Source of the DNA: a virus
DNA: 64,000 nucleotides
Direction: 5' to 3' (one strand)
IMG/VR virus record: IMGVR_UViG_3300002503_000002
Coordinates: 1-64,000 of that record
This document shows positions 25,346 to 64,000 of this stretch, one piece after another. Under the pieces are notes generated by a model. The model searched no databases and had not been told where the DNA came from. It saw nothing but the letters and a program-made list of their open reading frames with translations. Both the position numbers and the translations under genes were made by a program. Positions within the stretch are counted from its first letter, which is position 1. The number at the start of each line of letters is the position of its first letter.

Positions 25346-25346
25346 A

Positions 25347-25418: not shown

Positions 25419-25431
25419 GTATTATTTTTGA

Positions 25432-25502: not shown

Positions 25503-25520
25503 TTATATTATCATCATTAG

Positions 25521-27591: not shown

Positions 27592-28843
27592 TATAAACAC
27601 CCATATATTTAAATAATTTTTTTGGTCTCATACGCCATAATATTCTTCCGGCTGTTCTTTCATCTCCTAATATTTTATTTTTTATTTCTGTGTCAGATAG
27701 TCTTTTACCGCCGGGAGCAATTAAATAATGTGCCTCCTTTGTGAACTCAGATAATATTTCTCTTGCTATATTATTCATACAAAATGATGTACAATAAGAT
27801 TTTGAAAACCATTTGTGGGGTTCAAATCCTAATACTGTTAATTTATTCAAAAGAGATTTATTGGCTTTTGTTTCTATCTCGCCATCAAATCTCATACCAG
27901 CACGTTCAAATATAGGATTATACTTTGCCATTGCAGCAACAACATCAGCATTTGGATATTTCTTTAGATAATACTGAACGAGTAACTTACCAAAACCTAT
28001 ACCTCGATATGATGGATGTACGACAAGACGAGATATTCTTCTTCCACCGTCATGCATTCTATATGTTCCAATAAGAAATCCCACTGTTTTATCTTTGAAT
28101 TGTAATCTAATATAATCTTTAATACCTCCTGTGTATTTACCTTTATAATGTAAAACACCAATTGGTTCTTTTTTATACCAATCTTTTGTTTCTTCTATTA
28201 TTTTTAAATCATTATTGTTAATAAATAAGTTCTTATTATGTTCTTTATATTGTGGATATGCGACATCCCATCTAGACGGAAATGCTTTACCAGCAATAAT
28301 CAAATCTGGTTGTAAATAAGGTATTATATCAACATGGGCGCTCGCAATAATAGCCGTTAAATTTAATTTTCTGACAATCTTTTGAAAGTTATAAGCAATG
28401 ACAAAAGCTGTGTCTCTATCTAGAGAGGATAGAAATTCATCTATTATGATAGGACAATCATTCTTTGATTCCAAAATCATTTTAGATAAACGTGCCCTCA
28501 TTTTCTGACTATCACTTAAATATTTATAAGGTGTTAAAAACATTGTAGCATCGCCAAGACCTACAAGAGATAAGATTTGTAATGTTTTTTCTAAAGTATC
28601 ACCATATGTATAAAGTGGCTTATTTTCATCTATAAAAATCTTGGTTTCGTTTCCTAATGAGTTTAATAATGTTGTTTTCCCGCATCCAGATTCGCCAGTT
28701 ATATATACTAAACGGGGAAGTATATCAGGCAATTCTATATCTATGACATTATTTATAAATCCTTCATCTATACCAAAAGATTCGCCAATTTCTATAGCTT
28801 CATCTGAATCGATTTTATAATTAAAGGTCTTTTTTATTTTCAT
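27584..28843 (-). CDS. ABC-type ATPase fused to GNAT acetyltransferase (COG2401-like)
   Basis: Product of 419 residues from ATG 28843 (ATG 28855 also possible). N-terminal half is a single ABC ATPase: Walker A GESGCGKT (50-57), signature LSDSQ (109-113), Walker B IIIDE (132-136) followed by SSLD D-loop, and H-loop His170. C-terminal half is a GNAT domain: LVVHPSYRGIGFGKLLVQYY (273-292) holds the R-G-x-G-x-G/A acetyl-CoA loop. This arrangement matches COG2401, known mainly from archaea, whose substrate is unknown. No membrane domain is encoded nearby, so transport is unlikely; nucleic-acid or tRNA modification is possible but unproven. Confidence 0.8.
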   Translation of the reverse strand: MKIKKTFNYKIDSDEAIEIGESFGIDEGFINNVIDIELPDILPRLVYITGESGCGKTTLLNSLGNETKIFIDENKPLYTYGDTLEKTLQILSLVGLGDATMFLTPYKYLSDSQKMRARLSKMILESKNDCPIIIDEFLSSLDRDTAFVIAYNFQKIVRKLNLTAIIASAHVDIIPYLQPDLIIAGKAFPSRWDVAYPQYKEHNKNLFINNNDLKIIEETKDWYKKEPIGVLHYKGKYTGGIKDYIRLQFKDKTVGFLIGTYRMHDGGRRISRLVVHPSYRGIGFGKLLVQYYLKKYPNADVVAAMAKYNPIFERAGMRFDGEIETKANKSLLNKLTVLGFEPHKWFSKSYCTSFCMNNIAREILSEFTKEAHYLIAPGGKRLSDTEIKNKILGDERTAGRILWRMRPKKLFKYMGVYNE

Positions 28844-28958
28844 GGTTGCACACACATATCTTATTGGCGAACCATCCGTAACAATCCTTATGCATATTCA
28901 CCTGACAACATACGCATTGTTTTTGTTCCTCATTGTCCCTTATGTACTCTTGTTTCAT
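28821..28958 (-). CDS. Small Cys-rich protein (45 aa)
   Basis: Product MKQEYIRDNEEQKQC... with CVCCQVNMHKDCYGWF and CVCNH: six Cys and one His in a short span, a probable zinc knuckle. ATG 28958 has GGGGA eight bases upstream. A longer frame from 29048 would run over the C2H2 gene and is less likely. Overlaps genes on both sides. Confidence 0.5.
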   Translation of the reverse strand: MKQEYIRDNEEQKQCVCCQVNMHKDCYGWFANKICVCNHENKKDL

Positions 28959-29073: not shown

Positions 29074-29216
29074 GTTAACACCTTTCCACTACCATTGCAT
29101 TCATAACAGAAATTTAGATGCGTTATTTCCACAGGATTGTTTTTATTATGTACATATCCCCTGCCATTACAATAAGGACATGGTTTTGCAGTCTTACCAC
29201 GGAATGAATCTCTCAT
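29070..29216 (-). CDS. Mini DnaJ-type CxxCxGxG protein (48 aa)
   Basis: ATG 29216 overlaps the stop of the IMPDH/GMPR gene (ATGA). The product has two CxxCxGxG motifs, CPYCNGRGYV and CYECNGSGKV, separated by ~19 residues: exactly one zinc-binding module of the DnaJ/Hsp40 Cys-rich domain, here as a free-standing protein. It may bind unfolded protein or act as an adaptor. Confidence 0.65.
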   Translation of the reverse strand: MRDSFRGKTAKPCPYCNGRGYVHNKNNPVEITHLNFCYECNGSGKVLT

Positions 29217-30271
29217 AATGTCGTCCACTTCTTCTTTTCTCTTAACTTTGAAATATTCTCAGAACCCATATATGCTAGACCGTGCTTGATTCCACCCACA
29301 AGTCTATTGATAATTGTTTCTGTCGTTTCCCCGGTATCTGGAATGTATACCGTTCTGCCTTCCGGGGCTTCAATGTGAGCAATAGTGGATGCATCTTCTC
29401 CTGTTCGTTTGATTCGTTCTCTTTCTGCATGTTCGCTTGCCATCCCGCTATAAATTACATATGTCTTAGTCCAAGGTAAATATGTATTATTAAATGTTAC
29501 GCCGTCATCTGCCAATTGCCCTACGGTACGAGATGCGGGAGATTTATCTGTCGGAGCCAGTAATTTTCCTATGAATACCGTATCAGCACCAGCGGCCAGA
29601 CATTTGACTATATCCCCACTATTTCGTATTCCGCCGTCTGATACTATCGGTGTTTCTGGATATCTTTCTCGTATCTTCTCAATAGCCACCAACTGGTTAT
29701 AAGCAACACCAGTTGTAATCCTAGTAATACAAGACTGACCAGAACCAATTCCCACACGGAATCCGTCAATACCTGCGTCATAGTATCTCTCTGCGGCCTC
29801 TGTAGTGACTATATTTGCAGATATAATATCAATGCTATATATCTTTTTTATGTATTTCACCAAGTCATAGCATTGTTTCATATCACCGTGGGCCACATCC
29901 ATTGTCAATACATTACATCCAGCATTATACAACATATCAATGCGTTTCTCTTGGTTATTGACACTGATAGATGCTCCGACATGTAATCCTGCGTCTCTGA
30001 CTTTTTTGATTTGCTCTGCTTGTTCCCATTCAGGCATATAACGATGGATGATTCCTAGTCCACCAGAAGCTGCCATGAATGCGGCCATTTTGGTTTCTGT
30101 CACGCTATTCATTGGAGAGGAGATGATGGGATGTTTTAATTTAACATGACCGAACACAGTATCTAATGATATCTGGTCCCTATTGGTCATTTCACTGTAT
30201 TGAGGGACCAGCCAATATTTATCATAATCACTTTCTATTTCTGCGTTCAGTGATATCCACCCCCATTGCAT
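29213..30271 (-). CDS. IMP dehydrogenase/GMP reductase family enzyme
   Basis: TIM-barrel enzyme of 352 residues. The catalytic loop GIGSGQSCITRITTG has the nucleophilic Cys181; PMNSVT (53-58), MDVAHG (124-129), SDGGIRNSGDIVK and the C-terminal PEGRTVYIP...GGIKHGLAYMG are family landmarks. No CBS domains are present. TGVAYNQL after the Cys resembles GMP reductase (TGVGYPQL) more than IMPDH, so the enzyme may convert GMP to IMP or the reverse branch; the sequence cannot settle this. It would act on host purine nucleotides to balance pools for viral DNA. The N-terminal ~15 residues overlap the upstream gene. Confidence 0.85.
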   Translation of the reverse strand: MQWGWISLNAEIESDYDKYWLVPQYSEMTNRDQISLDTVFGHVKLKHPIISSPMNSVTETKMAAFMAASGGLGIIHRYMPEWEQAEQIKKVRDAGLHVGASISVNNQEKRIDMLYNAGCNVLTMDVAHGDMKQCYDLVKYIKKIYSIDIISANIVTTEAAERYYDAGIDGFRVGIGSGQSCITRITTGVAYNQLVAIEKIRERYPETPIVSDGGIRNSGDIVKCLAAGADTVFIGKLLAPTDKSPASRTVGQLADDGVTFNNTYLPWTKTYVIYSGMASEHAERERIKRTGEDASTIAHIEAPEGRTVYIPDTGETTETIINRLVGGIKHGLAYMGSENISKLREKKKWTTL

Positions 30272-42033: not shown

Positions 42034-44028
42034 TTAACCATCCTTTATATTCATATCCTTCGTTCTTTGCAATAACTCAGACAATGGTTCACCTATGACC
42101 AAATCCAATCTCTTCTTTTCTTCATCCCATTCTCTGATAAAGATATGCTCCCTAGTATCTGCATTAGCCAATCTGATATCTTCGACACGAAATACACGCA
42201 TCTTAGAACCTAGTTCAAGTCCAAGATCGTTAGCGGCCCATTTATTAAGTGTCTCTGTGCGGATAACGAAAGAACCATCCATATCATGGACAATCCCAAG
42301 ACCACCTAATACGGATTCATCGTCCCTTTTGTCATAAGTTGAGGCTTTCTGGTTGACACACAAGACGACAGGATACTTCTCCGTATTGTAGAATATCTCC
42401 TTAATCCCGAACATCATACGTTGGGCAAACACGAATGCCTGTGCTGGATAGGCTCTGATGAATTTGGTCAAAGAATCAATGACAATCAATTTGGGTTTGT
42501 CATGTTTATCGAGCCATGCTTGTATCGGATTTAATATACTCCTATCTACAAAACTCTCAATGACATTATATCCTGCTGACCCCGGTTGCAATCTATGACG
42601 GTCTATGAATGTCAAATGTGGGGTGTGCAACATCTTCCTATCCACGTTTAAATCCTGTCTGTGTTTATCGACAATTCTCATGAATTCTTTCTGTATAGAT
42701 TCGTTGTACATATAAAGTACGTCGTCTTCACGAAGGGCCATGTTAATTGCTTCATAGATGGCCATTGTGGTATTATGCGTGGCAATCATATCATCAGTCA
42801 AATATAATCCATCAGGAGAATCGATAGCAATACATTGTGATTGTTCCCTTCCATCTTCAATTATAGATGAAATAAATCTCTTGGGTTGTTTTTTGAAACC
42901 ATTTCCAAATATTTTACTTCTTTTTCCTCTAAAGATTTGAAGTCCTTTTGGCATTTTAATAGATAAAACATAACATGGTCTACCATATTTCATTTTTCCT
43001 TTATATATGAATTTAGGTATTTTTTTAATATTAACCCGGACTATTCCTCCAAAAGAATGAACTAAAAACATAACATCATCTTTCAATTTGGGTGATGTCG
43101 TATAAAATACTAATCCTTTTTTAGATACATAACCATCAGTATCCATTAAACCTTGGAATAACTGTAATCTCTCTTGTGGTGATGCAAGCAAATACTTATC
43201 TGGAATATATTTTTCATGTGACTTTAGACCAAATAATCTTAAATTAGATAATTGTTCTTTTAATTCATTTTTCAATCTACCGCCATTCATTGGTCCAGAA
43301 ATTCGCCAATCATAACGACTAACTTGTTTAAGTTTCAAATTATCATAATCTTTAATATAAGATGATATTTCTAACAATACTTTATTATCATTTGATGATA
43401 TCATAATTTGGTTTGTTATTCCTCCATCTCCAATCAAAACACCTAATAAATAAGGAGAAACTTCCAGATTTTCTGATTTCCCAAAATTTATTGGAGATGT
43501 TAATGGAATGCTCCATCTTGATTTTAAATTATATTTCAATAATTCAGATAAGGACACAGTTCGTGGTTTCCCTCTCTTTGAAAGGATAGTCCATAAATGT
43601 TCTTCTGTACATCTTGTACTACTACCATCTGAAAATTTAATTTTAAAAATAATTTTTTCTCCTTGTGGAAATATTCCAATAATTTTATGGAGATTGCCAT
43701 CTATTCCAATGACTAGAGTATCCATATTTATATCTTTCATTAATTTCCAACCATTAGAAGTCAAAATTTTGGCATTCATCGGTTGTGCTTTTCCAGCCTT
43801 GGGAACGGAAACAACACTAATAACCGACCCCGGTGGATATCCCTTATTTCCCAATAATTCATTCATTCCCTTTATCGTAGATTTGATATATTTCTGTTCG
43901 AATAATGTGGCATCCTCTTTTGGCGGAATGAACGAATGGAATCCTTGGTCGTCACGGGGGGTCTGATATTTCGTAAATGTTTGCTTCTTCACTAATGTCT
44001 GCTCTTCTTCTTCATTACCCAATTTCAT
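42034..44028 (-). CDS. RecA/RadA-like ATPase interrupted by an intein
   Basis: Precursor of 664 residues. Residues 1-80 and 420-664 form the ATPase (325 residues after splicing): Walker A is rebuilt as SVPKAGK + TT, exactly at the intein site; Walker B-like LIVIDSLTKF, and VLCVNQKAS near the end resemble RadA/RecA/KaiC-type cores. GMNELLGNKGYPPGSVISVV is the usual lead-in to the P-loop. The enzyme may be a recombinase or a DnaB-like helicase; the region after Walker B (EDIRLANADTREHIF) suits a DNA-bound ring. Insertion in the P-loop Lys/Thr codons is a classic intein site. Unspliced protein should be inactive. Confidence 0.85.
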   Translation of the reverse strand: MKLGNEEEEQTLVKKQTFTKYQTPRDDQGFHSFIPPKEDATLFEQKYIKSTIKGMNELLGNKGYPPGSVISVVSVPKAGKAQPMNAKILTSNGWKLMKDINMDTLVIGIDGNLHKIIGIFPQGEKIIFKIKFSDGSSTRCTEEHLWTILSKRGKPRTVSLSELLKYNLKSRWSIPLTSPINFGKSENLEVSPYLLGVLIGDGGITNQIMISSNDNKVLLEISSYIKDYDNLKLKQVSRYDWRISGPMNGGRLKNELKEQLSNLRLFGLKSHEKYIPDKYLLASPQERLQLFQGLMDTDGYVSKKGLVFYTTSPKLKDDVMFLVHSFGGIVRVNIKKIPKFIYKGKMKYGRPCYVLSIKMPKGLQIFRGKRSKIFGNGFKKQPKRFISSIIEDGREQSQCIAIDSPDGLYLTDDMIATHNTTMAIYEAINMALREDDVLYMYNESIQKEFMRIVDKHRQDLNVDRKMLHTPHLTFIDRHRLQPGSAGYNVIESFVDRSILNPIQAWLDKHDKPKLIVIDSLTKFIRAYPAQAFVFAQRMMFGIKEIFYNTEKYPVVLCVNQKASTYDKRDDESVLGGLGIVHDMDGSFVIRTETLNKWAANDLGLELGSKMRVFRVEDIRLANADTREHIFIREWDEEKKRLDLVIGEPLSELLQRTKDMNIKDG
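42772..43788 (-). other. Intein with LAGLIDADG endonuclease, class 3-like
   Basis: Intein of 339 residues (81-419 of the precursor). It begins with Ala-Gln (AQPMNAKILTSNGW) rather than Cys or Ser and ends ATHN followed by Thr. Block B TEEHLWTI has His144 and Trp146; block F carries Cys399 (QSQCIAI); +1 is Thr420. Trp(B:12), Cys(F:4) and Thr(+1) are the WCT signature of class 3 inteins, which splice by attack of the block F Cys. The endonuclease motifs are LLGVLIGDGG (194-203) and QGLMDTDGYV (292-301), both with the acidic residue, so homing may be active. Confidence 0.85.
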
Positions 44029-44250: not shown

Positions 44251-44424
44251 TTATTTTCCTATGACTGCACGTTCAATAAATAAAATACGTCGTTCTAATT
44301 CTTCTAAAGCCTCGTATAATTTAGTTTCTGCTCCAACTATCCCTAATTCTACATCACCAGATAATTTTTTTACTTTTTCCATTAAATCTGATAATATTAA
44401 ATCTGATAATAATACTCTTGTCAT
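44251..44424 (-). CDS. Small helical protein (57 aa)
   Basis: ATG 44424 overlaps the NADAR stop (ATGA); a longer start at 44487 lies inside that gene and is rejected. Leu/Glu/Lys-rich helices (LILSDLMEKVKKLSGD; YEALEELERRILFIER). Function unknown. Confidence 0.5.
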   Translation of the reverse strand: MTRVLLSDLILSDLMEKVKKLSGDVELGIVGAETKLYEALEELERRILFIERAVIGK

Positions 44425-44894
44425 CTTAACTCCTCTCTCACCTGCATTAACATCTTCCCTAGTTTGTCCTGACCTTTCATGCCCCAATACCTATCCGATG
44501 GACTGGCCTCATGTATTATTGAGTCTCCTGTGTCTATAAGCAAGTCTCGTATATCAGGGTTCTGTGTGAACTTGGCTCTCAATCCTGTAAGCATCACATT
44601 ATCTTTAATCATTTCCCAATCTGCACGAAATTCTCCTTGCTCTGAACGAAGGGAATGACCTGCTTTCATGGCCAAGAAAGGAGAGGGTGCTGAGGCAATC
44701 CACCATTTGATAAAGTCTGTTGTTGCTTTCTGCGATTGATAATAATGTTCATTGGTGGCAAATAGGAATTTTACATCGCTATCCTCATTATAATACATCT
44801 TCATTTGTTGCGCCGCCCTATAGAAATTACTCAGGAATCCATATGGTCCTTTCGTTGTATAGAATAATATCTCTTGTGGCATATTATCACTCAT
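44421..44894 (-). CDS. NADAR (YbiA-like) domain protein
   Basis: Product of 157 residues. FYTTKGPYGFLSNFYRA, then NEHYYQSQKA, then RADWEMIKDNVM...LRAKFTQNP and GDSIIHEASPSDRYWGMKGQ cover all hallmarks of the NADAR/YbiA family, N-glycosidases acting on ADP-ribose-like or riboflavin-intermediate substrates. Some NADAR proteins remove ADP-ribose from DNA and pair with DarT; phage copies could protect the genome from such modification. The catalytic region appears intact. ATGA overlaps on both sides. Confidence 0.85.
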   Translation of the reverse strand: MSDNMPQEILFYTTKGPYGFLSNFYRAAQQMKMYYNEDSDVKFLFATNEHYYQSQKATTDFIKWWIASAPSPFLAMKAGHSLRSEQGEFRADWEMIKDNVMLTGLRAKFTQNPDIRDLLIDTGDSIIHEASPSDRYWGMKGQDKLGKMLMQVREELR

Positions 44895-51152: not shown

Positions 51153-51350
51153 CTAATAAACAACAAACCCTAAGAAACGTGCGAATTGGAGACAAGTATC
51201 ACAATATTTGGCTATTTCTTTCGCTTCCTCGAAGGGACAAGAGCCATAATGATAATGCGTTATTTGGTTTATTTTGTAATGTGTCAAGAAATTATAAGGG
51301 GATTCATCCTCGCTTGCCCCGCATATAAAACATATTCCATGAGGATTCAT
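51153..51350 (-). CDS. Small Cys-pair protein, array member 1
   Basis: Product of 65 residues: CFICGASEDE, central YKINQITHYHYGSC, C-terminal YCDTCLQFARFLGFVV. N-terminal CxxC, a Tyr/His middle and a C-terminal CxxC followed by a hydrophobic helix define the array (51-57 and 63-64 kb). Probably one zinc site. Function unknown. Confidence 0.55.
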   Translation of the reverse strand: MNPHGICFICGASEDESPYNFLTHYKINQITHYHYGSCPFEEAKEIAKYCDTCLQFARFLGFVVY

Positions 51351-51628
51351 TTAAACAACCACTTATAAAAATTATGACATTCTTCACATATGGCCATAAC
51401 ATTATATTTATATCCTATATTTTTTAAAAGCCAGCAACTAATTTCTATGTAATACTTATTCTTATCGTAAGAAATTATACTATCGCGCTCTCTGTATACT
51501 GAAGATATTTTTTCTAATGGGTGGATATGATAATTATAATTAAGATAATGTCCTACGATAAGATATTCGGCGGGATTTTCCTTACAATGATGACATACTT
51601 CATATTTCTCTCTTTTCAATCTCACCAT
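51347..51628 (-). CDS. Small Cys-pair protein, array member 2
   Basis: Product of 93 residues from ATG 51628. VCHHCKENPAEYLI at the N terminus, YNYHIHPLEK in the middle, ICEECHNFYKWLFK at the very end. Same layout as its neighbour, with which it has an ATGA overlap. Confidence 0.55.
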   Translation of the reverse strand: MVRLKREKYEVCHHCKENPAEYLIVGHYLNYNYHIHPLEKISSVYRERDSIISYDKNKYYIEISCWLLKNIGYKYNVMAICEECHNFYKWLFK

Positions 51629-51947
51629 ACTCATCCTCACAAACAACACGACGAATGCCAGCCATCCTTAATGCATAAAAACAGAACATACAAGGACGGG
51701 ATAAACCACCCTTCATCCTAAATATATAAGCAGTAGAACCCTTTGCATTCCCATTGGCCCTATTCAGAGCGTCTATCTCACTATGGACCGTTCGTTCTTT
51801 GACAGCCAAACGGTTCTTTTCCTTATTCCAACCGACACTAATAGCCCGCCCCTTCTTTACAATGATACACCCTGTCCTCCTGCCCTTCTTGGGGTAGTCA
51901 GATAAAGAAGCAATGGACTGAGCCAATGATATCCAATCACGGGTCAT
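51600..51947 (-). CDS. dCMP/cytidine deaminase-like protein
   Basis: Product of 115 residues with the zinc-dependent deaminase signature: TGCIIVKKGRAISVGWN, HSE at 55-57 (H-x-E) and RPCMFC at 84-89 (P-C-x2-C). The family deaminates (d)CMP or cytidine, feeding dUMP/dTMP synthesis. Length is short for dCMP deaminase, closer to small phage deaminase-like proteins. It lies just upstream of the Cys-pair array. Confidence 0.75.
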   Translation of the reverse strand: MTRDWISLAQSIASLSDYPKKGRRTGCIIVKKGRAISVGWNKEKNRLAVKERTVHSEIDALNRANGNAKGSTAYIFRMKGGLSRPCMFCFYALRMAGIRRVVCEDEYGEIEKREI

Positions 51948-52004
51948 TCATATAACCATCCATATATCCGTATATTCATCCCTGATAAGATGATTTTTTC
52001 ATGA

Positions 52005-52175
52005 TTATTCCATACCATAATATTCAATACTATCCTCAACTTCTTCCCTTACTTGGTCAATATTCTTAAACATGGTTGTATTGAAACTTAATGTCATCAA
52101 GATATCTCTTTTCTCCATCGTCTCAGGGTCGATGACTTCCACGATAATATGATAGTCCTTATACTTTGTACTCAT
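52005..52175 (-). CDS. Hypothetical micro-protein (56 aa)
   Basis: ATG 52175 to TAA 52005. MSTKYKDYHIIVEVIDPETM, then a helical, acidic end (QVREEVEDSIEYYGME). No Cys pairs, so it is not part of the array. Overlaps the upstream gene by 17 bases. Confidence 0.5.
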   Translation of the reverse strand: MSTKYKDYHIIVEVIDPETMEKRDILMTLSFNTTMFKNIDQVREEVEDSIEYYGME

Positions 52176-52443
52176 TTATTATACACCGTCCTGTAAACAA
52201 CAATTCAAAAAATATTATCCTTATACACTCTTCACATAAGAAAGTCAATTGATGGTCAGGAGTAGCCATACAAGCACGGTTATACATATTCACTGATTTC
52301 AAAAATTCCCCAAACACAGATGCAATCAAATAATTACTAAATTGATATTTAATGTCATTCATATGAATTATCACATTTGTTATAGAATTACACTGAAAAC
52401 ATAATCCATTTCCTTCGGGATAAGCAGATATAAACGTTTTCAT
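52159..52443 (-). CDS. Small Cys-pair protein, array member 3
   Basis: Product of 94 residues from ATG 52443. LCFQCNSITNVIIHMNDIKY; C-terminal LTFLCEECIRIIFFELLFTG. Same layout as other members, with a hydrophobic helix after the second CxxC. Confidence 0.55.
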   Translation of the reverse strand: MKTFISAYPEGNGLCFQCNSITNVIIHMNDIKYQFSNYLIASVFGEFLKSVNMYNRACMATPDHQLTFLCEECIRIIFFELLFTGRCIINEYKV

Positions 52444-52444
52444 T

Positions 52445-52582
52445 TTAATCACAATGATATGATGTACAGAAACTTGATACTGGTTTCTTATGTTGATGCC
52501 AGTGTGTCCATTTAATTACCTTGCCGCCAGTACGTTCTATATTCTTTATTGCCGTGGCACATTCAATACAAACAATATCCAT
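52445..52582 (-). CDS. Small Cys-pair protein, array member 4 (45 aa)
   Basis: ATG 52582 shares its A with the upstream TGA. MDIVCIECATAIKNIE has the CxxC-plus-helix that is C-terminal in other members; KWTHWHQHKK and CTSYHC follow. It may be a rearranged or split member. Confidence 0.5.
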   Translation of the reverse strand: MDIVCIECATAIKNIERTGGKVIKWTHWHQHKKPVSSFCTSYHCD

Positions 52583-52887
52583 CAAATCATCTCAATGAAT
52601 ATATAATTGTATAAATCAGCCATTCGTACAACTGTCCGTAAACATTTCTTGCACCAATGCGCCTTCGTTTCATCAAACATTTTACGATTGAATTCGTTTA
52701 AACTCCTGTTACGAGAATAAGCAGATATACGCGAGATATAATTATGAGAACCACATAATGTTCCACTTTTACTATTGTTTACAAATTTATTATCTATTAA
52801 TTCGTCATATGTTCTTTCTCGCAGAGAAAAAGAGATATGATACACTGGGGTTATAGTAGACGTTGCGATATAAATCATAAATTTCAT
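52582..52887 (-). CDS. Small Cys-pair protein, array member 5
   Basis: Product of 101 residues. TPVYHISFSLRERTYDELI then HWCKKCLRTVVRMADLYNY near the C terminus; the N-terminal CxxC is missing, leaving one CxxC and a lone Cys. Possibly a diverged member. Confidence 0.5.
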   Translation of the reverse strand: MKFMIYIATSTITPVYHISFSLRERTYDELIDNKFVNNSKSGTLCGSHNYISRISAYSRNRSLNEFNRKMFDETKAHWCKKCLRTVVRMADLYNYIFIEMI

Positions 52888-52893
52888 TTCATG

Positions 52894-53154
52894 TCACCCG
52901 TCACCTGTTATCAATTTAACACCATCTGCACCCAAAAAATGAATATAAAAACATACTATCTGAAAACATTCATCACATAAACTAATTAAATGACTCTTTT
53001 GATGGGTACAAAATCTTTTTTCTACTACACAACGTCTTTGTAATTCATCGATACTTATTCTTACAATGTTTTGAGGAATCCAATTCTTTATGTCAGAAAT
53101 ATGGTACAAATTACTTTCCTTATTATTGCAATGTTTGCAAATAGGAGGAGACAT
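52894..53154 (-). CDS. Small Cys-pair protein, array member 6
   Basis: Product of 86 residues: ICKHCNNKESNLYHISDIKN at the N terminus, RFCTHQKSHLISLCDECFQI in the C-terminal half and a hydrophobic helix FYIHFLG. YHIS after the first CxxC is shared with member 5 (VYHIS), suggesting common origin. The start overlaps the RNA ligase stop by one base. Confidence 0.6.
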   Translation of the reverse strand: MSPPICKHCNNKESNLYHISDIKNWIPQNIVRISIDELQRRCVVEKRFCTHQKSHLISLCDECFQIVCFYIHFLGADGVKLITGDG

Positions 53155-54050
53155 TATTTAAAACTCCTCTTCAATAACCATTCCTTGTAAAATTCAGGAG
53201 CCCCACCGATAACAGCACGTTCCATCTTAGGCCAGAAATAATCAAATAATTCTTGCATGATGGCTTCTTTCTCTTCCTTCAATATATCTTCTTTGATTTC
53301 TTTCAGGAGATTTCCAATATCCTTGGGGTCGTATTCTAATTCTCCACGTTCTTCTAAATGCTGTATGGCTTTTTTCCATCGTGCTTCTGTCCTATATGAT
53401 AAGATAAGTTTTTGTAGGATATCCCCTTGTGTTGGATTCTTCTCGCGCCAATCCTTCTGTTGGACTTCTTTGAATCGTTCACTTACGAATTTCCCTATCG
53501 CTACCTTCTTCTCACTGGTAATCATAGTATAATTCTTGACCACCACGCCTTCTAATTTGGTCCCCTCTAATACAGATTCCTGCTCCAAGAATGAAAGCAA
53601 TTCATTGGGAGTATCTATCTTACCAATAAAGAGGATAGGGACACATTCCAAACCAATACGGTCTGCCTCATTATATTTCTGGTCCGGTGTCATGTATTGT
53701 TCTAAACCCGTGGATATATCAAATATGATTAAATGGTCCCTTGGAACCCTACTATATTTCAATGTCCCATGTTCAGGAGTTTTCAGATATTCAGCACGAT
53801 AGATATAACCCGGTTTGAACAAACCCTGTGCATATTTCTGTTTAATGACATTCACGGCTTCTTGAAACATTTTGTCCGGGGCATCTAATATTATTTGTTT
53901 CCCCTTGGACCGTGCTTGTAATTCGTTATCTGTGACAGACCAACTGAATTGCGATCCATCAATTTTTTCTTCTATTACAACATCACTCTTGAAAATATCC
54001 AATACCTGCTTATGACCCAATGCGAACACAGATGGGTAACTATATATCAT
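53154..54050 (-). CDS. RNA ligase, Rnl2-like
   Basis: Product of 298 residues from the nucleotidyltransferase superfamily. Motif I EEKIDGS gives the adenylated Lys29; RAEYL (85-89) is motif III; LEGVVVKNY (166-174) is motif IV; KKVAIGKFV (181-189) contains the motif V Lys. A C-terminal helical domain of ~100 residues follows. These features match Rnl2-type RNA ligases (RNA repair or editing) rather than DNA ligase, which has an OB domain. In phages such enzymes mend tRNAs cut by host anticodon nucleases. The window also encodes tRNAs, RNase H and an MJ1316 domain, consistent with RNA maintenance. Confidence 0.8.
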   Translation of the reverse strand: MIYSYPSVFALGHKQVLDIFKSDVVIEEKIDGSQFSWSVTDNELQARSKGKQIILDAPDKMFQEAVNVIKQKYAQGLFKPGYIYRAEYLKTPEHGTLKYSRVPRDHLIIFDISTGLEQYMTPDQKYNEADRIGLECVPILFIGKIDTPNELLSFLEQESVLEGTKLEGVVVKNYTMITSEKKVAIGKFVSERFKEVQQKDWREKNPTQGDILQKLILSYRTEARWKKAIQHLEERGELEYDPKDIGNLLKEIKEDILKEEKEAIMQELFDYFWPKMERAVIGGAPEFYKEWLLKRSFK

Positions 54051-54259
54051 GGCAATCCCCCTTCTTCAAATTCCCGAATACGCCAAGCATCAATCTGTCC
54101 ATAATCTTTTTTCATTTGTTTTTTATACAATCCACATTTTATACATTTAACATAGATAATATCTCTAATACCTGTCTTAAACCCATATTGAGTAGATTTC
54201 AACTTTATTTCTATATTTTGCTCAGTTTTATATTGAGTCCATTTATGAAATAGACACAT
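54047..54259 (-). CDS. Small zinc protein (MCLFHKW family)
   Basis: Product of 70 residues beginning MCLFHKWTQY, with VKCIKCGLYKK after a strand region. C-x2-H plus C-x2-C gives one zinc site; short phage proteins with this opening are common. ATGA overlap with the RNA ligase gene. Confidence 0.6.
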   Translation of the reverse strand: MCLFHKWTQYKTEQNIEIKLKSTQYGFKTGIRDIIYVKCIKCGLYKKQMKKDYGQIDAWRIREFEEGGLP

Positions 54260-54580
54260 TTAGACACCTTCATTAATTAGATATGTTCTTCCGATATGTT
54301 TTTTTATTTCTTCAATACTTTGAGCAGGATTAGTTCCGCTTTCTCTGGAATAAAATAAAAGCACATAAAATAATATTTTTTGTAAATCTTCCTCATTTTC
54401 TATCTTTACTGTGTTATCATTTTTATCGTCTCTGAGTTGTGAATGTAGTTTATATCCTTGATTATGTTTGTCTCCATTACAATAATAACAATAATATGGT
54501 CCAGAATCATAATCTTTTGAATCTTCTATATCCTCGGCCCTTAGATGAAACCAAATAGGAAATTTAATTTTGGTATTCAC
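54260..54580 (-). CDS. Small Cys-pair protein, array member 7
   Basis: Product of 106 residues. YYCYYCNGDKHNQGYKLHSQ, then a helical part (EEDLQKILFYVLLFYSRE). The layout (C-Y-x-C-N, later hydrophobic helix) is shared with the next gene upstream, suggesting a duplicated pair. The C-terminal CxxC is absent. Confidence 0.5.
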   Translation of the reverse strand: MNTKIKFPIWFHLRAEDIEDSKDYDSGPYYCYYCNGDKHNQGYKLHSQLRDDKNDNTVKIENEEDLQKILFYVLLFYSRESGTNPAQSIEEIKKHIGRTYLINEGV

Positions 54581-54903
54581 TTAAAAACCTCTGATAATAT
54601 ATATTCAGTACTCTGACAATGTGCCACTCGTTCATGCATTGATTTATAATCATTGATAATGAACATCTGAAATAGAATATTCATAAGGTCTTCATATATA
54701 GTAATTTTATATGTTTTAATTATATCAGATGGGTGTGAAAGATGTTCTTTATAAAATTTCATTGGCTGTCCCTTATCATTGGTAAATATATCTCCATAAT
54801 TACATATATAACAATAAAATATCCTAGGACTACCACCATTATATGTTATACCATCCTTCATGACCTCATGAAAGACAACTACCCTGTTTAGTTCATTGAC
54901 CAT
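54577..54903 (-). CDS. Small Cys-pair protein, array member 8
   Basis: Product of 108 residues from ATG 54903. FYCYICNYGDIFTNDKGQPM and a helix YEDLMNILFQMFIINDYKS near the same place as member 7's. Probably a paralogue of member 7; ATGA overlap with it. Confidence 0.5.
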   Translation of the reverse strand: MVNELNRVVVFHEVMKDGITYNGGSPRIFYCYICNYGDIFTNDKGQPMKFYKEHLSHPSDIIKTYKITIYEDLMNILFQMFIINDYKSMHERVAHCQSTEYILSEVFK

Positions 54904-55351
54904 GATAACCATTTATCCTTTTTCTGTACGATGAATTCACAAAAGACTCTAATTTCTTCCCTGCTTTGTTATCTTTCCGGCCAACCCATGATAATGTATA
55001 ATCAATATGTGCTAAAAGAGCAAGTGCTGTTTTCCTGCGTTCTCTCAATGCAGGACTATTTGTTTTATAAGTGCCCTTTATCTGATTAACAATGGTCTGT
55101 GAATCCCCGATAATTTCATATTCCTTATCATTGAAATAAAGTTGGTGTTGTACATATTCCAGTGCCTTAATCAAGGCATCATATTCTGCCTGATTGGAAG
55201 AATGAGCCTCAGAGAGAAATATATGCTCTTGTTCTAAGTTATTTTCTTCAATGATATAACATCCATATGTCTTGCGTTTTTCTATATCCTTTATATGATT
55301 GTTTATACAAGCACCATCGAACCATATCTTCACTTTCTTTTCCTTATCCAT
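54893..55351 (-). CDS. RNase H-like protein
   Basis: Product of 152 residues with the RNase HI core: WFDGAC (Asp12), SNQAEYDALIKAL (Glu56), IIGDSQTIVNQI (Asp83). The C-terminal SWVGRKDNKAGKKLES corresponds to the last motif, but the usual Asp (A-D) is Gly here, so the fourth acidic ligand may be missing. The enzyme would cut RNA in RNA/DNA hybrids, removing primers or acting on RNA termini. Adjacent to the MJ1316-domain gene and near RNA ligase. Confidence 0.75.
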   Translation of the reverse strand: MDKEKKVKIWFDGACINNHIKDIEKRKTYGCYIIEENNLEQEHIFLSEAHSSNQAEYDALIKALEYVQHQLYFNDKEYEIIGDSQTIVNQIKGTYKTNSPALRERRKTALALLAHIDYTLSWVGRKDNKAGKKLESFVNSSYRKRINGYHGQ

Positions 55352-55569
55352 ATTACATTACCATCCAACCATATTTTCTGAATTTTATATAATGGTATTC
55401 TACCTCTATCTGTCGTAAAGTAACGACGTTCAACATCTCTGATAGTATTACCTTCTATATTCTTAAAGCCGATGATTAATGTTCTATCAGAACAATCTAT
55501 TTTCACTCTGGCAAAATCTATGTTCAATCCCCATTTCAGGAAATTGAGGACTTCCCGAGCAGTTTTCAT
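55330..55569 (-). CDS. MJ1316/DUF504 RNA-binding domain protein
   Basis: Product of 79 residues covering one MJ1316 domain: TAREVLNFLKWGLNIDFARV, a strand region with IIGFKNIEG, and IPLYKIQKIWLDGNVIWIR matching the IPxHRI-x-x-I-x-x-x-G-x-x-x-W-x-R end of the family. The family is predicted to recognise 2',3'-cyclic RNA ends and is common in archaea. Standing beside RNase H and close to RNA ligase, it probably directs RNA end processing. Overlaps the RNase H start by 22 bases. Confidence 0.65.
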   Translation of the reverse strand: MKTAREVLNFLKWGLNIDFARVKIDCSDRTLIIGFKNIEGNTIRDVERRYFTTDRGRIPLYKIQKIWLDGNVIWIRKRK

Positions 55570-55940
55570 AAAACCACCTTTAAATCTTGAATAATATCTT
55601 CTATTGCTTCCATTTTAGTATCTGATAATTGCAGACAGATATTATAAGGATATGGATAGTGCATAAATCTATGTTTTAAACATGTATTACATAATTTACA
55701 TTGGTGATATAATTTAGTAAAATTATCTGCTCGATAATACGCATCCTCGTCATTACTAAATTGATAGTCATTATTTGTATGTAAAACACCTACTTTTATA
55801 TAAGAATATGCTGTATGTTTCTTGCAATCATCACAAACGAATTTATTATTAATAGAGCCGAGCCATATTTCTTTATATTTATTGTCATCTCCATAATCAA
55901 TAGAAGTCTTATTATACAATACACCCTTATATTTAAACAT
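55566..55940 (-). CDS. Small Cys-pair protein, array member 9
   Basis: Product of 124 residues opening MFKYKGVLYN, then WLGSINNKFVCDDCKKHTAY and QCKLCNTCLKHRFMHYPYP. First CxxC at ~36 and a C-terminal Cys set at ~81. The opening M-[FL]-K-Y-x-x-[VI]-LYN and W-L-x-S-x-N-K are shared with member 10, showing duplication. Confidence 0.6.
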   Translation of the reverse strand: MFKYKGVLYNKTSIDYGDDNKYKEIWLGSINNKFVCDDCKKHTAYSYIKVGVLHTNNDYQFSNDEDAYYRADNFTKLYHQCKLCNTCLKHRFMHYPYPYNICLQLSDTKMEAIEDIIQDLKVVL

Positions 55941-55949
55941 CGAAACACC

Positions 55950-56327
55950 TTAGAATGTCAATTTTATCATATTCATTAAATCTATTATATTGGTGATGCC
56001 ATCTATTGATAATGGTATTTCATACGTAATATTATATAATTTAAAGTCTTCATCATCAAAAGCAAAACATAGACAATCTTTACATATGGAATATGTTTTA
56101 GGCGCTCTATTGTTTACCATCCAAAGTAAATTATTATCCTTTCTTACTTTTTTTACTAAGAAGTGATAGGTATGTGAATTTTTGGATTTACATTCTCCAC
56201 ATACATAGTTTTTATTCTTTGAACGTAACCAGAATTGTGTACTTTCTTCATATTCATCTATATAATTATCATCGGTCTTTTTATCCATAATCAATGTATT
56301 GTATAATATGTTATTATATTTCAACAT
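55950..56327 (-). CDS. Small Cys-pair protein, array member 10
   Basis: Product of 125 residues opening MLKYNNILYN, then WLRSKNKNYVCGECKSKNS, TYHFLVKKV, TYSICKDCLCFAFDDED. Same order as member 9: shared N-terminal motif, CxxC, aromatic-His middle, CxxC. Function unknown. Confidence 0.6.
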   Translation of the reverse strand: MLKYNNILYNTLIMDKKTDDNYIDEYEESTQFWLRSKNKNYVCGECKSKNSHTYHFLVKKVRKDNNLLWMVNNRAPKTYSICKDCLCFAFDDEDFKLYNITYEIPLSIDGITNIIDLMNMIKLTF

Positions 56328-56329
56328 GA

Positions 56330-56518
56330 TTAAAACTCCTCTCGAAATTCTGTATCATCCACTGTGAATTCCGCTCCTACGATACAAGATTCAGAACATA
56401 GATGTGCCCATTTACCTTTTATCATTTTAGCAAATTGCACGGTGTTTTCATGACAGACAGGACATAATTCACCTTTATCTACGAAACAACCACATTCTAA
56501 TAACAACTCTTCTGTCAT
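56330..56518 (-). CDS. Small zinc protein, array member 11
   Basis: Product of 62 residues: LLECGCFVDKGELCPVCHEN, then HLCSESCIVGAEF. Three Cys pairs. Shorter than neighbours and lacking the hydrophobic end, so perhaps a different subfamily. ATGA overlap with the upstream gene. Confidence 0.5.
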   Translation of the reverse strand: MTEELLLECGCFVDKGELCPVCHENTVQFAKMIKGKWAHLCSESCIVGAEFTVDDTEFREEF

Positions 56519-56832
56519 GATTTGTCTCCTCTAAAGATAGTATCACGCAGAACAATTAAATCATCCAATTCGCCTTTGCTTTCTATAACCATTAACGCAG
56601 AGAGACAAGAATAATCATCACATAAAAACAAACTATTGTTCATCATCTTATCAATTTCTTCTCTTGTTAATATGTCTTGGTTTTTAGGATAAATCTGGCA
56701 ATTAGAAACATGATATAGATGCCAATGCGTCTTATAATTTATTTTATCAATCCTCGGCTCCCGTTTAATCTTATGATACTGTGCACCGTTCTTCTGACAG
56801 AAGGAACATAGGATATTATCTATGTAGACCAT
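56515..56832 (-). CDS. Small Cys-pair protein, array member 12
   Basis: Product of 105 residues: CSFCQKNGAQYHKIKREPRI, central THWHLYHVSNC, C-terminal LFLCDDYSCLSALMVIESKG. Clearly paralogous to member 13 (CxxC, then YH and basic residues, W-H, then F/LFxC-D/N-x-x-C-L-S). Confidence 0.6.
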   Translation of the reverse strand: MVYIDNILCSFCQKNGAQYHKIKREPRIDKINYKTHWHLYHVSNCQIYPKNQDILTREEIDKMMNNSLFLCDDYSCLSALMVIESKGELDDLIVLRDTIFRGDKS

Positions 56833-57132
56833 TTATAACATCTCCTTCAATCTCAAACTATATTGTGGTTCATCTAATATCAACACAGAGGAAAGACATA
56901 CTTCATTATTGCATACAAAAATAGATATATCTTCTATTTTATTTTTTTTTAATAATAACTCTACTGTTTCTTCGTTATTATCATTATTCTTCCATGTACG
57001 ATTATTAAAAATACAAAATTTAAAATCATGCCACAATAAAGTATAATGTATAGAGTCGTTCCAGCGCCTAGTAAATCTATGATAGGATGGTTTATTTATA
57101 CCACATACCATACACTTTATATCTATCATCAA
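56833..57132 (-). CDS. Small Cys-pair protein, array member 13
   Basis: Product of 99 residues (98 from 57129): CMVCGINKPSYHRFTRRWND, LLWHDFKFC, IFVCNNEVCLSSVLILDEP. Paralogous to member 12, which starts right after it; the C-terminal pair is C-x4-C in both. Confidence 0.6.
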   Translation of the reverse strand: MMIDIKCMVCGINKPSYHRFTRRWNDSIHYTLLWHDFKFCIFNNRTWKNNDNNEETVELLLKKNKIEDISIFVCNNEVCLSSVLILDEPQYSLRLKEML

Positions 57133-58709: not shown

Positions 58710-58991
58710 TTACAGATTAAATTCCTTCACTAATCTATTGTATACATCGATATTTACTGTGAAAAATATTTCACCATAAACATTATCTTGATAATAATTT
58801 ATACTATTAATATGTAATAATATTAAGATATTAGTCAACACTGGAGTTGAAATATTCTTAATACAATATCCATGTTTTTGAGTGATATCTTTATCTCTCT
58901 CATCTTCTTTTTTACATGGACACCATAGACAATGATTTATAAAAGAATTGGTAAACCAAAGATGATGAATCAAGTCATTTTCCATTTCCAT
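58710..58991 (-). CDS. Small Cys-containing hypothetical protein
   Basis: Product of 93 residues from ATG 58991 (AAGGAG seven bases upstream); 58997 and 58985 are alternatives. INHCLWCPCKKEDERDK is followed by a lone Cys (HGYC) and a hydrophobic helix (VLTNILILLHINSIN). Resembles the array proteins in style. Starts inside the upstream gene's last codons. Confidence 0.45.
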   Translation of the reverse strand: MEMENDLIHHLWFTNSFINHCLWCPCKKEDERDKDITQKHGYCIKNISTPVLTNILILLHINSINYYQDNVYGEIFFTVNIDVYNRLVKEFNL

Positions 58992-60318
58992 TTCCATTCT
59001 CCTTATATTCGATACGGATGATATCTCCAAATGGCGGATCATCTTTGGCCTGAAAGTTGCCAGCATAAATCCATAATGTCTTGAAATCCCCGATATCCTC
59101 TTCGTTTGGAAATGTACCCTGTCCATCCGTGAAATATAGAAAAGCCTTACAATTTGGTGCGTTTTCCAAGGCCCATTCAAACGCAGGACAGAAATCAGTC
59201 CCACCATATCCCTTTCTTTTTGACAGGGTTTCTAATATATCTGCGGTACTCGTCGTTGTGATTGTATGCTTAACATCAGCATCGCTTGAGATAATCGTAA
59301 AACGTACCCGATTGAAGGCCCGAGCAATGGCAAATAACTCATTGAGGAAATCAATGTAAAGAGTATCATCCACCGAACCTGAGACATCTATCGACACGAT
59401 TATCTCTAATTCCTCACGTAGGATAGAAGGTAAATAAGCCCCAACTCCAGCCGATTTCTTGGAAGGCTTAGACCATGTGAAATCCTGTGGAACGGATTGC
59501 TGTATGAAACGATACAGATATCTGCGCCAATCCACTTTCTCAGGAGCTAACTTAATATCCACTAATTTTTCCAAAGAACCAGATAATTTACCTTGCCTAT
59601 GTGCTAATTCTGCCGCATTCAATACGGCCTCATTCCATTCCTCTTTCAATTGTTTCAATTCATTTTCAAATTCCTTGACTTCCTTACCAATCTCTGAATC
59701 CTTCGAACCGCTAAATCTATCCTTATCGCTCTTAAAATCCCCTTCGCCCATAGCCTCGTTCTTTTCTTGTTCTGTTTCACCATCGGCATTTGTGAATCCA
59801 CCACACCCACCGTATATTTCCAATAACTTTTGATGACTTAACAAATCCCTATAAATCTCTTCACTTGACATTCCCTTATATTTCACAAGTTCTTTTATTC
59901 TTGATGTTATCGATTTATCACTGACATTGAATCCATTCTCCAACAGAATATCATTAATCACCATATCCGTGGCAATATTCCAGCATTTTCTCTTTACTGT
60001 CTCAGGCTTTGCTTTGAATCTCTTATCGTGAGAAAAGGCCAGATGCATAGTTTCATGCGCTACAACACATTCCAATTCATCATCTTTCAATGAGGCAACG
60101 AAATCATCATCATAGAACAAATGACCTTGATAATCTACACACATTGTCGGCTGAATGCCTAATTTATTTGCTTCAGCCGTTATAGATTTTGGCATTTTTG
60201 TTAGAGACAGGCGTAAAGATAGGTATCCAAAGAACGGTTGTTTTTCCAGTAATTTCGCTCTCGCCTTCCTAACTCTTTCTTCCGGTGTGAACTTTGTAGA
60301 TAATATAGACATATCCAT
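58975..60318 (-). CDS. DUF2201-like metallopeptidase/VWA protein
   Basis: Product of 447 residues. N-terminal domain has H88-E-x-x-H92 (VAHETMHLAF), the zinc-binding motif of a peptidase-like DUF2201 region; C-terminal VWA-like domain has the MIDAS motif DVSGS (311-315) and a later YFTDGQG. A charged linker lies between. Proteins of this type pair with a MoxR ATPase encoded next door, here at 60376-61467, acting as an ATPase plus VWA adaptor that remodels or processes a target. A hairpin/T-tract lies between the two genes. Confidence 0.85.
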   Translation of the reverse strand: MDMSILSTKFTPEERVRKARAKLLEKQPFFGYLSLRLSLTKMPKSITAEANKLGIQPTMCVDYQGHLFYDDDFVASLKDDELECVVAHETMHLAFSHDKRFKAKPETVKRKCWNIATDMVINDILLENGFNVSDKSITSRIKELVKYKGMSSEEIYRDLLSHQKLLEIYGGCGGFTNADGETEQEKNEAMGEGDFKSDKDRFSGSKDSEIGKEVKEFENELKQLKEEWNEAVLNAAELAHRQGKLSGSLEKLVDIKLAPEKVDWRRYLYRFIQQSVPQDFTWSKPSKKSAGVGAYLPSILREELEIIVSIDVSGSVDDTLYIDFLNELFAIARAFNRVRFTIISSDADVKHTITTTSTADILETLSKRKGYGGTDFCPAFEWALENAPNCKAFLYFTDGQGTFPNEEDIGDFKTLWIYAGNFQAKDDPPFGDIIRIEYKENGNGNGK

Positions 60319-60375: not shown

Positions 60376-61467
60376 CTAGATATATTTCGCATATTTCAGA
60401 CCTATTTCTCTATCTACCTTGACGATATCCCACATCTGTTCCCTAAATTCTGCTCCACCAAATACCTTCAAGAGATTCAACAATAGCATACCGTATTCAG
60501 GTTCAATATCCTTGCTGAATTTCATGACTTTCTTCAACTTATCCACTTTTTTATTATACCATTCAGACATTGCTGTAATCACAGCATACTTCTCATCGGG
60601 CTTTAGTTTGTTGAAGTCTTGGTCGCCGTTGACAATATCATCAATCTTATATTTGTTCAACGACTTGCAAAACTGCTCAAACATATGTCCAACGGCTTTC
60701 CCTACAACAGCCTTTGCAAACCATACGTCTTTCTGCCCCAAAATCAAATGAGACAGTTTTTCCCAAGAACGTGGTGTCGCAAACGCCATATCAGATTTGT
60801 TCTTCGGGTCGAATTGATTCAGTTTAGTAGGTTGCCACCCCAAAAACCCAACAATCCTGAAATCAATACTATTCGGGATTGCAAAGTTCTGTATCCATTC
60901 TTCCGTATGCTCTGGTGTCTCGGGAGCCGTCAATAGATAATGAGCATATCTATTCCCTAATGTGGCTTCCATATCAAAGACATTAACCCTATCCTCTACC
61001 CTATTCCCTGCGGCTATGACCAGCCAGCCATCCGGTAGAATGGCATTTGCTATATGCCTTCCATGCAAAAGCGGATAGAAAGACGAACGGACTAAATCAG
61101 GGGCTCTGTTAAATTCATCCAAGAAATAGATTCCCTGACCAACTCTTGGGAAATCATCAGGGACGAGCCATTTCGTATAACCCTCTACCGGGAATGGAAT
61201 CCCCTTGATATCCGAAGGGTCGAATTGTGCCGCATTGACAGTTCTGACCACAAATTTCTTCGTATGTCCAGCGAAATCCCTTGGGTCTGTCGAATATTCC
61301 CAGTTATTTTCTTTCGCAATCGTCCTTCCAGCCGCCTTTACTGCATCCGTTTTCCCAATACCCGGAGCCCCCCAAATAAACATGGGGACGCTCTTTGCAC
61401 GAATCTCGTAATGGCGTCTTATTGCTTCCAATAGTTTTTCATGGTTTACTTCTAACACTTTACTCAC
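60376..61467 (-). CDS. MoxR-like AAA+ ATPase
   Basis: Product of 363 residues: Walker A GAPGIGKT (33-40), Walker B IYFLDEFNRA (113-122), sensor-like VIAAGNRVEDR, and a C-terminal helical lid. MoxR ATPases work with VWA proteins as chaperone-like complexes. The adjacent VWA/HExxH gene completes the pair. Similar MoxR/VWA pairs occur in phages, where the target is unknown. Overlaps the upstream gene by eight bases. Confidence 0.9.
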   Translation of the reverse strand: MSKVLEVNHEKLLEAIRRHYEIRAKSVPMFIWGAPGIGKTDAVKAAGRTIAKENNWEYSTDPRDFAGHTKKFVVRTVNAAQFDPSDIKGIPFPVEGYTKWLVPDDFPRVGQGIYFLDEFNRAPDLVRSSFYPLLHGRHIANAILPDGWLVIAAGNRVEDRVNVFDMEATLGNRYAHYLLTAPETPEHTEEWIQNFAIPNSIDFRIVGFLGWQPTKLNQFDPKNKSDMAFATPRSWEKLSHLILGQKDVWFAKAVVGKAVGHMFEQFCKSLNKYKIDDIVNGDQDFNKLKPDEKYAVITAMSEWYNKKVDKLKKVMKFSKDIEPEYGMLLLNLLKVFGGAEFREQMWDIVKVDREIGLKYAKYI

Positions 61468-62675: not shown

Positions 62676-62867
62676 TCACATCGCCATATGTTTTTCCATA
62701 TTGTTACAGAATAGACCGCAAGAACGACATAAGAACATAGATTCAGATTCTACAATATCTATGAAATCCTCATAGTCAATATCCCTGATATCAGTCTGAG
62801 ATAAAGAAACAGGCGTTACATCCTCGCTGACACAATGACATTTAATATATAGTGGGATATCAGTCAT
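62676..62867 (-). CDS. Small Cys-rich protein
   Basis: Product of 63 residues: KCHC near the N terminus, CRSCGLFCNNMEKH at the C terminus. C-x-C, C-x2-C, C...H: one zinc site. Similar in style to the array. Confidence 0.5.
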   Translation of the reverse strand: MTDIPLYIKCHCVSEDVTPVSLSQTDIRDIDYEDFIDIVESESMFLCRSCGLFCNNMEKHMAM

Positions 62868-63150
62868 CTTGATTCTCCTTCTTCGTTTCTTCTTCTTCTA
62901 ACATAGTCTTGAATTTCTCGACCGCATCATCAATACCCTCAGCCTTAATCCTCTGCGGCTCAGGTTCTACTTTGACATAGAAACCTTTGTTATCCTCCAA
63001 TTCCTTATAATCTAAGATTTCAAAATATTCAATAGCCTCCGTAGAGAATATTGTATCGGGCTCATCACATTCGGGATTCAGACATAGATATATGTCGCCA
63101 TAATATTCGTGCTTCAATGTCATATCTTCCTTACATTGCAGGCATTTCAT
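62860..63150 (-). CDS. Zinc-ribbon protein with acidic tail
   Basis: Product of 96 residues from ATG 63150 (ATGA overlap with the upstream gene). MKCLQCKEDMTLKHEYYGDI then CLNPEC: two pairs around a hairpin; C-terminal ~40 residues Glu/Lys-rich. Confidence 0.55.
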   Translation of the reverse strand: MKCLQCKEDMTLKHEYYGDIYLCLNPECDEPDTIFSTEAIEYFEILDYKELEDNKGFYVKVEPEPQRIKAEGIDDAVEKFKTMLEEEETKKENQDD

Positions 63151-63419
63151 TTTAATTTCATACCTCCAGACGTATAATTGGCAATGAACCAACATTCATC
63201 ACAGAATACATTTTCTTCTTCATTCACATCTAATTCTTCCACTATTTTTTTTGTATGTTTATATTTATAGAAAGTACAACGAGCATTAGTTAAAATATCG
63301 CAAGGTTGGTAGTCATTTAGATTTATTAGCGCAGTTTCATCTATCTTAATCAAAGCATTAAACGACAATAAAAAGTGTTTCGTTGCCAATGTATTATTAC
63401 AATGGCTACAAAAAACCAT
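63147..63419 (-). CDS. Small Cys-pair protein, array member 14
   Basis: Product of 90 residues: VFCSHCNNTLATKHFLLSFN at the N terminus, VFCDECWFIANYTSGGMKLK at the end. Same layout as the 51-57 kb array. Confidence 0.6.
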   Translation of the reverse strand: MVFCSHCNNTLATKHFLLSFNALIKIDETALINLNDYQPCDILTNARCTFYKYKHTKKIVEELDVNEEENVFCDECWFIANYTSGGMKLK

Positions 63420-63420
63420 C

Positions 63421-63756
63421 TTATCCCTCTAAGAATACTTTCATTATGCAGTTTGCATCTCCGCAAGTAATGACACCAAAGTCCCTCGTCAATTTAGCTA
63501 ATTCCATTTCATCATCCCGATGTATTTCGTTGGTACATACATAACAATGTGCTGTGAATTGATGCCATTTATCAGGGATACCATAATCATGATAATGGAC
63601 TCCTTTCATATCTTTTGGGATATCACCACAAGCAGTAAATTTAGGATGCCATGATTTTGGAAGACCCTTACCACAACTACAACCACATTGCTTATTGTGG
63701 ATATAACACATAATAGGACATTGTGTATCTGTCAGATTTTTTATCAGTCCCATCAT
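63421..63756 (-). CDS. Cys-rich protein, array-like member 15
   Basis: Product of 111 residues from ATG 63756 (A shared with upstream TAA). CPIMCYIHNKQCGCSCGKG, then GVHYHDYGIPDKWHQFTAHC and ITCGDANCIMKVFLEG. More Cys than other members, but the YH middle and the C-terminal C-x4-C are shared with members 12 and 13. Confidence 0.55.
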   Translation of the reverse strand: MMGLIKNLTDTQCPIMCYIHNKQCGCSCGKGLPKSWHPKFTACGDIPKDMKGVHYHDYGIPDKWHQFTAHCYVCTNEIHRDDEMELAKLTRDFGVITCGDANCIMKVFLEG

Positions 63757-64000
63757 TACCACCAATAACGTATAAAAGCAGGAAAGACACATTCTTCGCA
63801 ATATACATGTCCTAATGCTGTAAGTCCTAAATCTTTCATAGTATTCATACTGTCATAATATCTGCTTATCTCACATAAAAAATATGTCTGATTACTATTG
63901 TCCATGAATCTCTTGCCTTCTCTTATATTACATGGCCTATATTGATTTTTGCTCAACTCCTTATCTTTAATGTCTCTTAATAGAATATCCAATGACCATG
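63756..64000 (-). CDS. Cys-pair protein, 5' partial at window edge
   Basis: The frame is open to base 64000, so the start may lie beyond the window; the only internal start is TTG 63992. It contains QTYFLCEISRYYDSMN and ends HVYCEECVFPAFIRYWW, the C-terminal CxxC plus aromatic helix typical of the array. Confidence 0.5.
   Translation of the reverse strand, partial: WSLDILLRDIKDKELSKNQYRPCNIREGKRFMDNSNQTYFLCEISRYYDSMNTMKDLGLTALGHVYCEECVFPAFIRYWW

Follow-up and report, generated by a model that had tools for sequence, protein, structure and literature searches.

Why should a single virus crowd so many small proteins with two CxxC motifs among its replication and nucleotide genes, and do these proteins form one family with one purpose? 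The DNA analysed, hereafter the window, comprises bases 1-64000 of a 68,955-base IMG/VR virus record. Up to ~22 kb the genes are on the plus strand and specify proteins of the tail and fibres; the remainder of the record is on the minus strand. A second contig of 59,308 bases (L007/G002) is the same virus, being 100% identical to positions 1-42777 of the window; it adds upstream terminase, portal and capsid genes and does not carry the array. The array lies within the minus-strand part, with genes for a deaminase, an RNA ligase, an RNase H, DUF932, DUF2201/vWA and AAA ATPase proteins as neighbours. Its coordinates, strand and reading frames in the original prediction were correct. The genes concerned are as follows.

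51153..51350, minus strand: two-CxxC protein of 65 aa (CFIC...CDTC), the most compact member; overlaps the next gene by 4 nt
51347..51649, minus strand: two-CxxC protein (CHHC...CEEC); the listed start overlaps the deaminase gene and the real start is probably later
51600..51947, minus strand: non-member lying within the array, similar to cytidine/deoxycytidylate deaminases (Pfam PF00383, E 4e-13)
52159..52452, minus strand: two-CxxC protein, paralogue of 52894 (z 11.8)
52445..52585, minus strand: CxxC plus C-x4-C protein of 46 aa
52582..52887, minus strand: small protein with a C-terminal CxxC only (WCKKCL)
52894..53154, minus strand: two-CxxC protein with C-x2-C-x8-H, paralogue of 52159 (z 11.8)
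53154..54050, minus strand: RNA ligase, a neighbour and not a member (Pfam PF09414, E 4e-14)
54260..54580, minus strand: single-CxxC protein (CYYC) lacking a second knuckle by its Cys count, paralogue of 54577 (z 9.9)
54577..54912, minus strand: single-CxxC protein (CYIC, later H-x2-H), paralogue of 54260 (z 9.9)
54893..55351, minus strand: RNase H-like protein, a neighbour (Pfam PF13456/PF00075)
55566..55940, minus strand: two-CxxC protein, paralogue of 55950 (z 10.6)
55950..56327, minus strand: two-CxxC protein with C-x2-C-x8-H, paralogue of 55566 (z 10.6)
56330..56518, minus strand: C-x2-C...C-x3-C protein of 62 aa
56515..56832, minus strand: CxxC / C-x4-C protein with YH and W-H, paralogue of 56833 (z 9.9)
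56833..57132, minus strand: CxxC / C-x4-C protein, paralogue of 56515 (z 9.9)
62860..63195, minus strand: acidic CxxC / C-x4-C protein that may be of a different kind (topoisomerase zinc ribbon, E 0.011, below cut-off)
63147..63419, minus strand: two-CxxC protein, paralogue of 63756 (z 15.7)
63421..63801, minus strand: Cys-rich protein ending CYVC...CGDANC; the listed TTG start overlaps 63756 and the real start is probably later
63756..64000 in the window (full gene 63756-64049), minus strand: two-CxxC protein, paralogue of 63147 (z 15.7)

Small genes were scored as two-knuckle when the product has a CxxC near its N terminus followed further on by another CxxC or by C-x4-C, the expectation being taken from shuffled proteins. 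Between 51153 and 57132, nine of 17 small genes (51153, 51347, 52159, 52445, 52894, 55566, 55950, 56515 and 56833) have this form against 0.2 expected (P = 5e-4, the smallest value that the test can give), and the array is real. The tenth candidate, 56330, has the pattern C-x2-C...C-x3-C. A second concentration occurs at 62.6-69 kb, where 7/23 small genes are two-knuckle (0.4 expected) and span 62.8-68.2 kb; 63147, 63421 and 63756 are among them, the last with its start (64049) outside the window. Elsewhere the count is 4/43 in 22-51 kb and 0/6 in the structural region. The dense array that had been proposed is therefore present, but the set is not uniform and ‘at least ten’ genes with this layout is slightly too many, because 54260, 54577 and the neighbours 52582, 54047 and 62676 have only one CxxC each. 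The YH dipeptide is enriched, being seen 11 times against 3.5 expected. The small genes are tightly packed, with 16 of 51 junctions overlapping by 1-8 nt and 14 abutting within 15 nt; repeat and promoter scans found no shared control element.

Duplication accounts for several of the genes. Using Smith–Waterman scores expressed as z against shuffles, the three pairs first named, 55566/55950, 56515/56833 and 54260/54577, are significant at z 10.6, 9.9 and 9.9 with 26-35% identity. The first two are duplicates as claimed, and the third is paralogous as well, although its members, with a single CxxC each, do not have the two-CxxC layout ascribed to them. Three further pairs were found: 63147/63756 (z 15.7), 52159/52894 (z 11.8) and 64392/65260 (z 7.1). 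Across the six pairs, Cys is conserved between copies in 73% of Cys-containing columns, whereas Tyr is kept in 37% of columns, His in 34% and other residues in 4-20%. Divergence after duplication has been fast, as had been supposed, with Cys spared and Tyr and His less so; synonymous change between copies is presumably saturated. Such a pattern would be given by a metal-held scaffold with a free surface, and alone it is no proof of positive selection. Given this selective retention of Cys, the array proteins very probably bind zinc.

The fold is a more delicate matter. From the order of the motifs, the chances are roughly balanced that it would be treble-clef-like, with a first knuckle, a Tyr/His hairpin and a second knuckle that opens a helix. 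Two AlphaFold models reached a pLDDT of 38.5 and 48.8, too low to name a fold, and the helix that begins at the second CxxC in the low-confidence model of 51153 is unreliable. The suggestion that all members share one zinc fold found no support in these models, nor in profile (HMM) comparisons between the pairs, which stayed at noise level with hhalign probabilities <4%.

Kinship of four pairs is nevertheless possible to probable, though unproved. The motif C-x2-C-x7/8-H is present in at least one copy of four pairs and is enriched when the Cys positions are held fixed (11 seen against 4.1 expected, P 0.0015), as is its [YFW]H form (5 against 0.54), but the patterns were picked after viewing the sequences and such p-values flatter them. 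When an N-block position matrix was made from three pairs and scored against ~91 genes, one member of the fourth pair ranked 1-2 in all four trials (p 0.005-0.02), whereas the other copy of each left-out pair mostly failed. The alternative, that the pairs are several unrelated zinc mini-proteins which converged on two CxxC motifs and constitute no single family, falls only a little short of an even chance. The hhalign values between pairs agree with it, as do the missing second knuckle of 54260/54577, the differing knuckle spacing, the use of C-x2-C in some and C-x4-C in others, and the zinc-ribbon-like character of 62860; the motif common to four pairs and the high rank of left-out members argue against it, modest as those p-values are and with most partners failing.

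Searches for relatives gave little. Pfam, PHROGs and NCBIfam returned only sub-threshold noise for the array proteins, in line with the view that they belong to no named family, and profiles built from the pairs gave nothing or noise against the PDB. A ten-row array profile recovers all ten of its own rows in this virus and matches nothing in 35 PolB-bearing virus records or in 295 archaeal genomes. IMG/VR searches with an array protein and with the neighbouring RNA ligase and AAA ATPase detected no array relative, record L003 being no more than an AAA ATPase match. A match of 51153 to a 63-aa Cas8b model (PADLOC PDLC01367, E 6e-4) was set aside because the model also matches 8/14 control genomes, including Bacillus subtilis, and a Cas5 match of 56833 lies far below the NCBI cut-off and leaves the first knuckle out. 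A search of 60 archaeal genomes for the ClpX zinc-domain family, a further candidate for comparison, yielded no member. As no homologue is found outside this virus, comparison offers no independent clue to function.

The virus itself is probably an archaeal tailed virus. Its PolB is nearest, distantly, to haloviral PolB (25-29%); its capsid protein matches 5/295 genomes from the phylum of Halorubrum (E 1e-18 to 2e-33), and tape-measure matches lie near two of these archaeal capsid genes. In the phylum of a Lachnospiraceae genome the capsid protein matches 4/300 genomes with a best E of 3e-9, and among 50,697 phage records it has no match. The terminase, nearest to those of Bacillus-type phages, and the ribosome-binding sites, a mix of GGAG and GGTG, point otherwise. 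The regions near the capsid relatives in the five archaeal genomes contain only 1-3 two-CxxC genes each. The best-scoring family for the capsid protein (L086:7751-8659), which has relatives in those five genomes, is that of the encapsulins (Linocin_M18, E 5e-11).

Small CxxC proteins are common in archaeal viruses and functionally blank. Haloviruses of the HF1 group and Hardycor1 encode numerous such proteins outside the assembly module, and interaction roles have been suggested for them (PMC7230728, PMC7911831). The novelty is consequently less than the original prediction supposed: the kind is already known, and what is new is the crowding, the duplication in pairs and the orphan nature of the sequences. 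The resemblance to the proteins of the HF1 group, Hardycor1 and HRTV-25 is one of arrangement, many small proteins with at least one CxxC lying outside the virion-assembly module, as here (two knuckles in 9/17 and 7/23 small genes and in 0/6 of the structural region), but no sequence relatives of the array were found among them. Hardycor1 also has several of its CxxC genes side by side, close to AAA and vWA genes, on the strand not used by the structural genes. Under one ORF rule, two-knuckle small proteins number 3.6 per 10 kb here, ~5x the densest of 17 other records, PolB-bearing or haloviral, in which the figure ranges from 0 to 0.75. That rule performs badly on GC-rich haloviruses, and it is fairer to set the 17 members in 47 kb here against the annotated counts of six in HRTV-25 and two in Hardycor1, or ~3x HRTV-25. 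Paralogue pairs are present here and absent from the control viruses in an ORF-based test. In this virus the DUF2201 metallopeptidase-like/vWA protein (58975-60318, minus strand) adjoins the AAA ATPase (60376-61467, minus strand), and a vWA/AAA gene pair has been noted in haloviruses too.

Haloarchaeal cells have comparable proteins of their own, the zinc-finger micro-proteins of the HVO_0758 type and Brz, which are likewise small and two-motif, with C(P)xC(G) motifs and reported regulatory roles. The Haloferax set is <70 aa, whereas the proteins here reach 125 aa, have 35-65 residues between knuckles and are without the CPxCG signature. The zinc domain of McsA, the protein-arginine kinase activator, has the similar order CxxC-x7-H followed by hydrophobic-C-E-x-C and is the best PDB match of one array profile (A5, E 0.01), but the match is not significant after domain splitting (1.1 and 33), the knuckles of McsA are much closer together and the rest of McsA is absent here.

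That the array proteins are early regulatory or host-takeover zinc micro-proteins is, in our judgement, a reading with an even prospect of being right. On this view local amplification would have produced a group of small, soluble micro-proteins that bind zinc. Each would begin with a zinc knuckle, continue through a middle rich in Tyr and His and end in a short hydrophobic or aromatic helix opened by a second knuckle, in a treble-clef-like manner. Their genes lie with those for replication and for RNA and nucleotide functions in tightly packed minus-strand runs that are probably co-transcribed, and early synthesis is therefore probable. The extra copies arose by duplication, and selection retained the metal ligands while the surface diverged, so that the partners of the copies, whether from the host or from the virus, probably differ. 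Candidate targets are RNA polymerase, transcription factors, nucleic acid and defence proteins, the effect being to redirect the cell. The link to the host, already proposed, is suggested by where the array lies, surrounded by genes for replication, RNA repair and nucleotides and opposite in strand to the structural genes, and by analogy with the haloviral and haloarchaeal CxxC micro-proteins. The net charges of the array proteins range from -15 to +6 and so indicate no single kind of binding partner. An extended version, in which a virus-specific zinc-scaffold family with a new zinc mini-fold has been repeatedly duplicated and diversified into an adaptable host-binding set, each copy serving a different host factor, is unlikely; in principle such a set would resemble diversified anti-defence repertoires. 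Should each copy indeed have its own host factor, the virus would possess a compact set of effectors based on a single metal site. The six recognizable pairs are natural variants that separate scaffold from diverged surface, and they make the binding partners a testable question.

The main rivals of a host-takeover role are self-regulation and anti-defence. The proteins could mainly regulate the virus's own transcription or replication, as small zinc fingers that bind viral DNA or RNA, or the polymerase of the host, in a timed sequence, in the manner of Brz or AFV1p06. PMC7230728 cites archaeal and viral examples of small zinc-finger proteins that play roles of this kind, and basic proteins occur among the members and neighbours (52582, 54047, 51347 and 64603, net +4 to +6), but most members are neutral or acidic, and one or two regulators would be enough, which leaves the many divergent duplicates unexplained; we consider this explanation to have perhaps half the promise of the host-takeover role. 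An anti-defence function, for example as diversified inhibitors of CRISPR or other host immunity amplified to track host diversity, appears improbable. It would suit proteins that are small, divergent and duplicated and whose genes lie in a non-structural region, and archaeal viruses have been reported with several uncharacterized anti-CRISPR paralogues per genome (PMC11065993). Set against this, the sole defence-library match that covers the knuckles, that of 51153 to the Cas8b model, is unspecific. HNH endonucleases have two CxxC motifs around a catalytic His, and the array proteins could be degenerate forms of the Zn-type (PF01844) in view of the same order, CxxC-x8-H...C-x2-C, and the ‘L-x-x-L-C-x-x-C’-like end of some members. 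This is now largely refuted and very improbable: PF01844 has no match in this virus at E 0.01, hhalign to seven HNH domains gives the noise-level values of 1-8%, and neither the HH/DH doublet nor the central Asn among the catalytic residues is kept.

Other genes of the minus-strand part also deserve mention. A KaiC/RecA-like ATPase gene (42034-44028) is interrupted by an apparent intein that carries a homing endonuclease of the LAGLIDADG type (Pfam LAGLIDADG_3, Hom_end). The virus encodes an IMP dehydrogenase / GMP reductase domain protein (29213-30271, minus strand; PF00478, E 6e-79) and a NADAR-domain protein with a possible link to ADP-ribose chemistry or defence (44421-44894, minus strand; PF08719, E 8e-31). 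An ABC-type ATPase domain is fused to a GNAT acetyltransferase domain at 27584-28855 (minus strand), and four clustered tRNA genes, for Gly, Ala, Phe and Asn, lie at 25272-25592 on the same strand.
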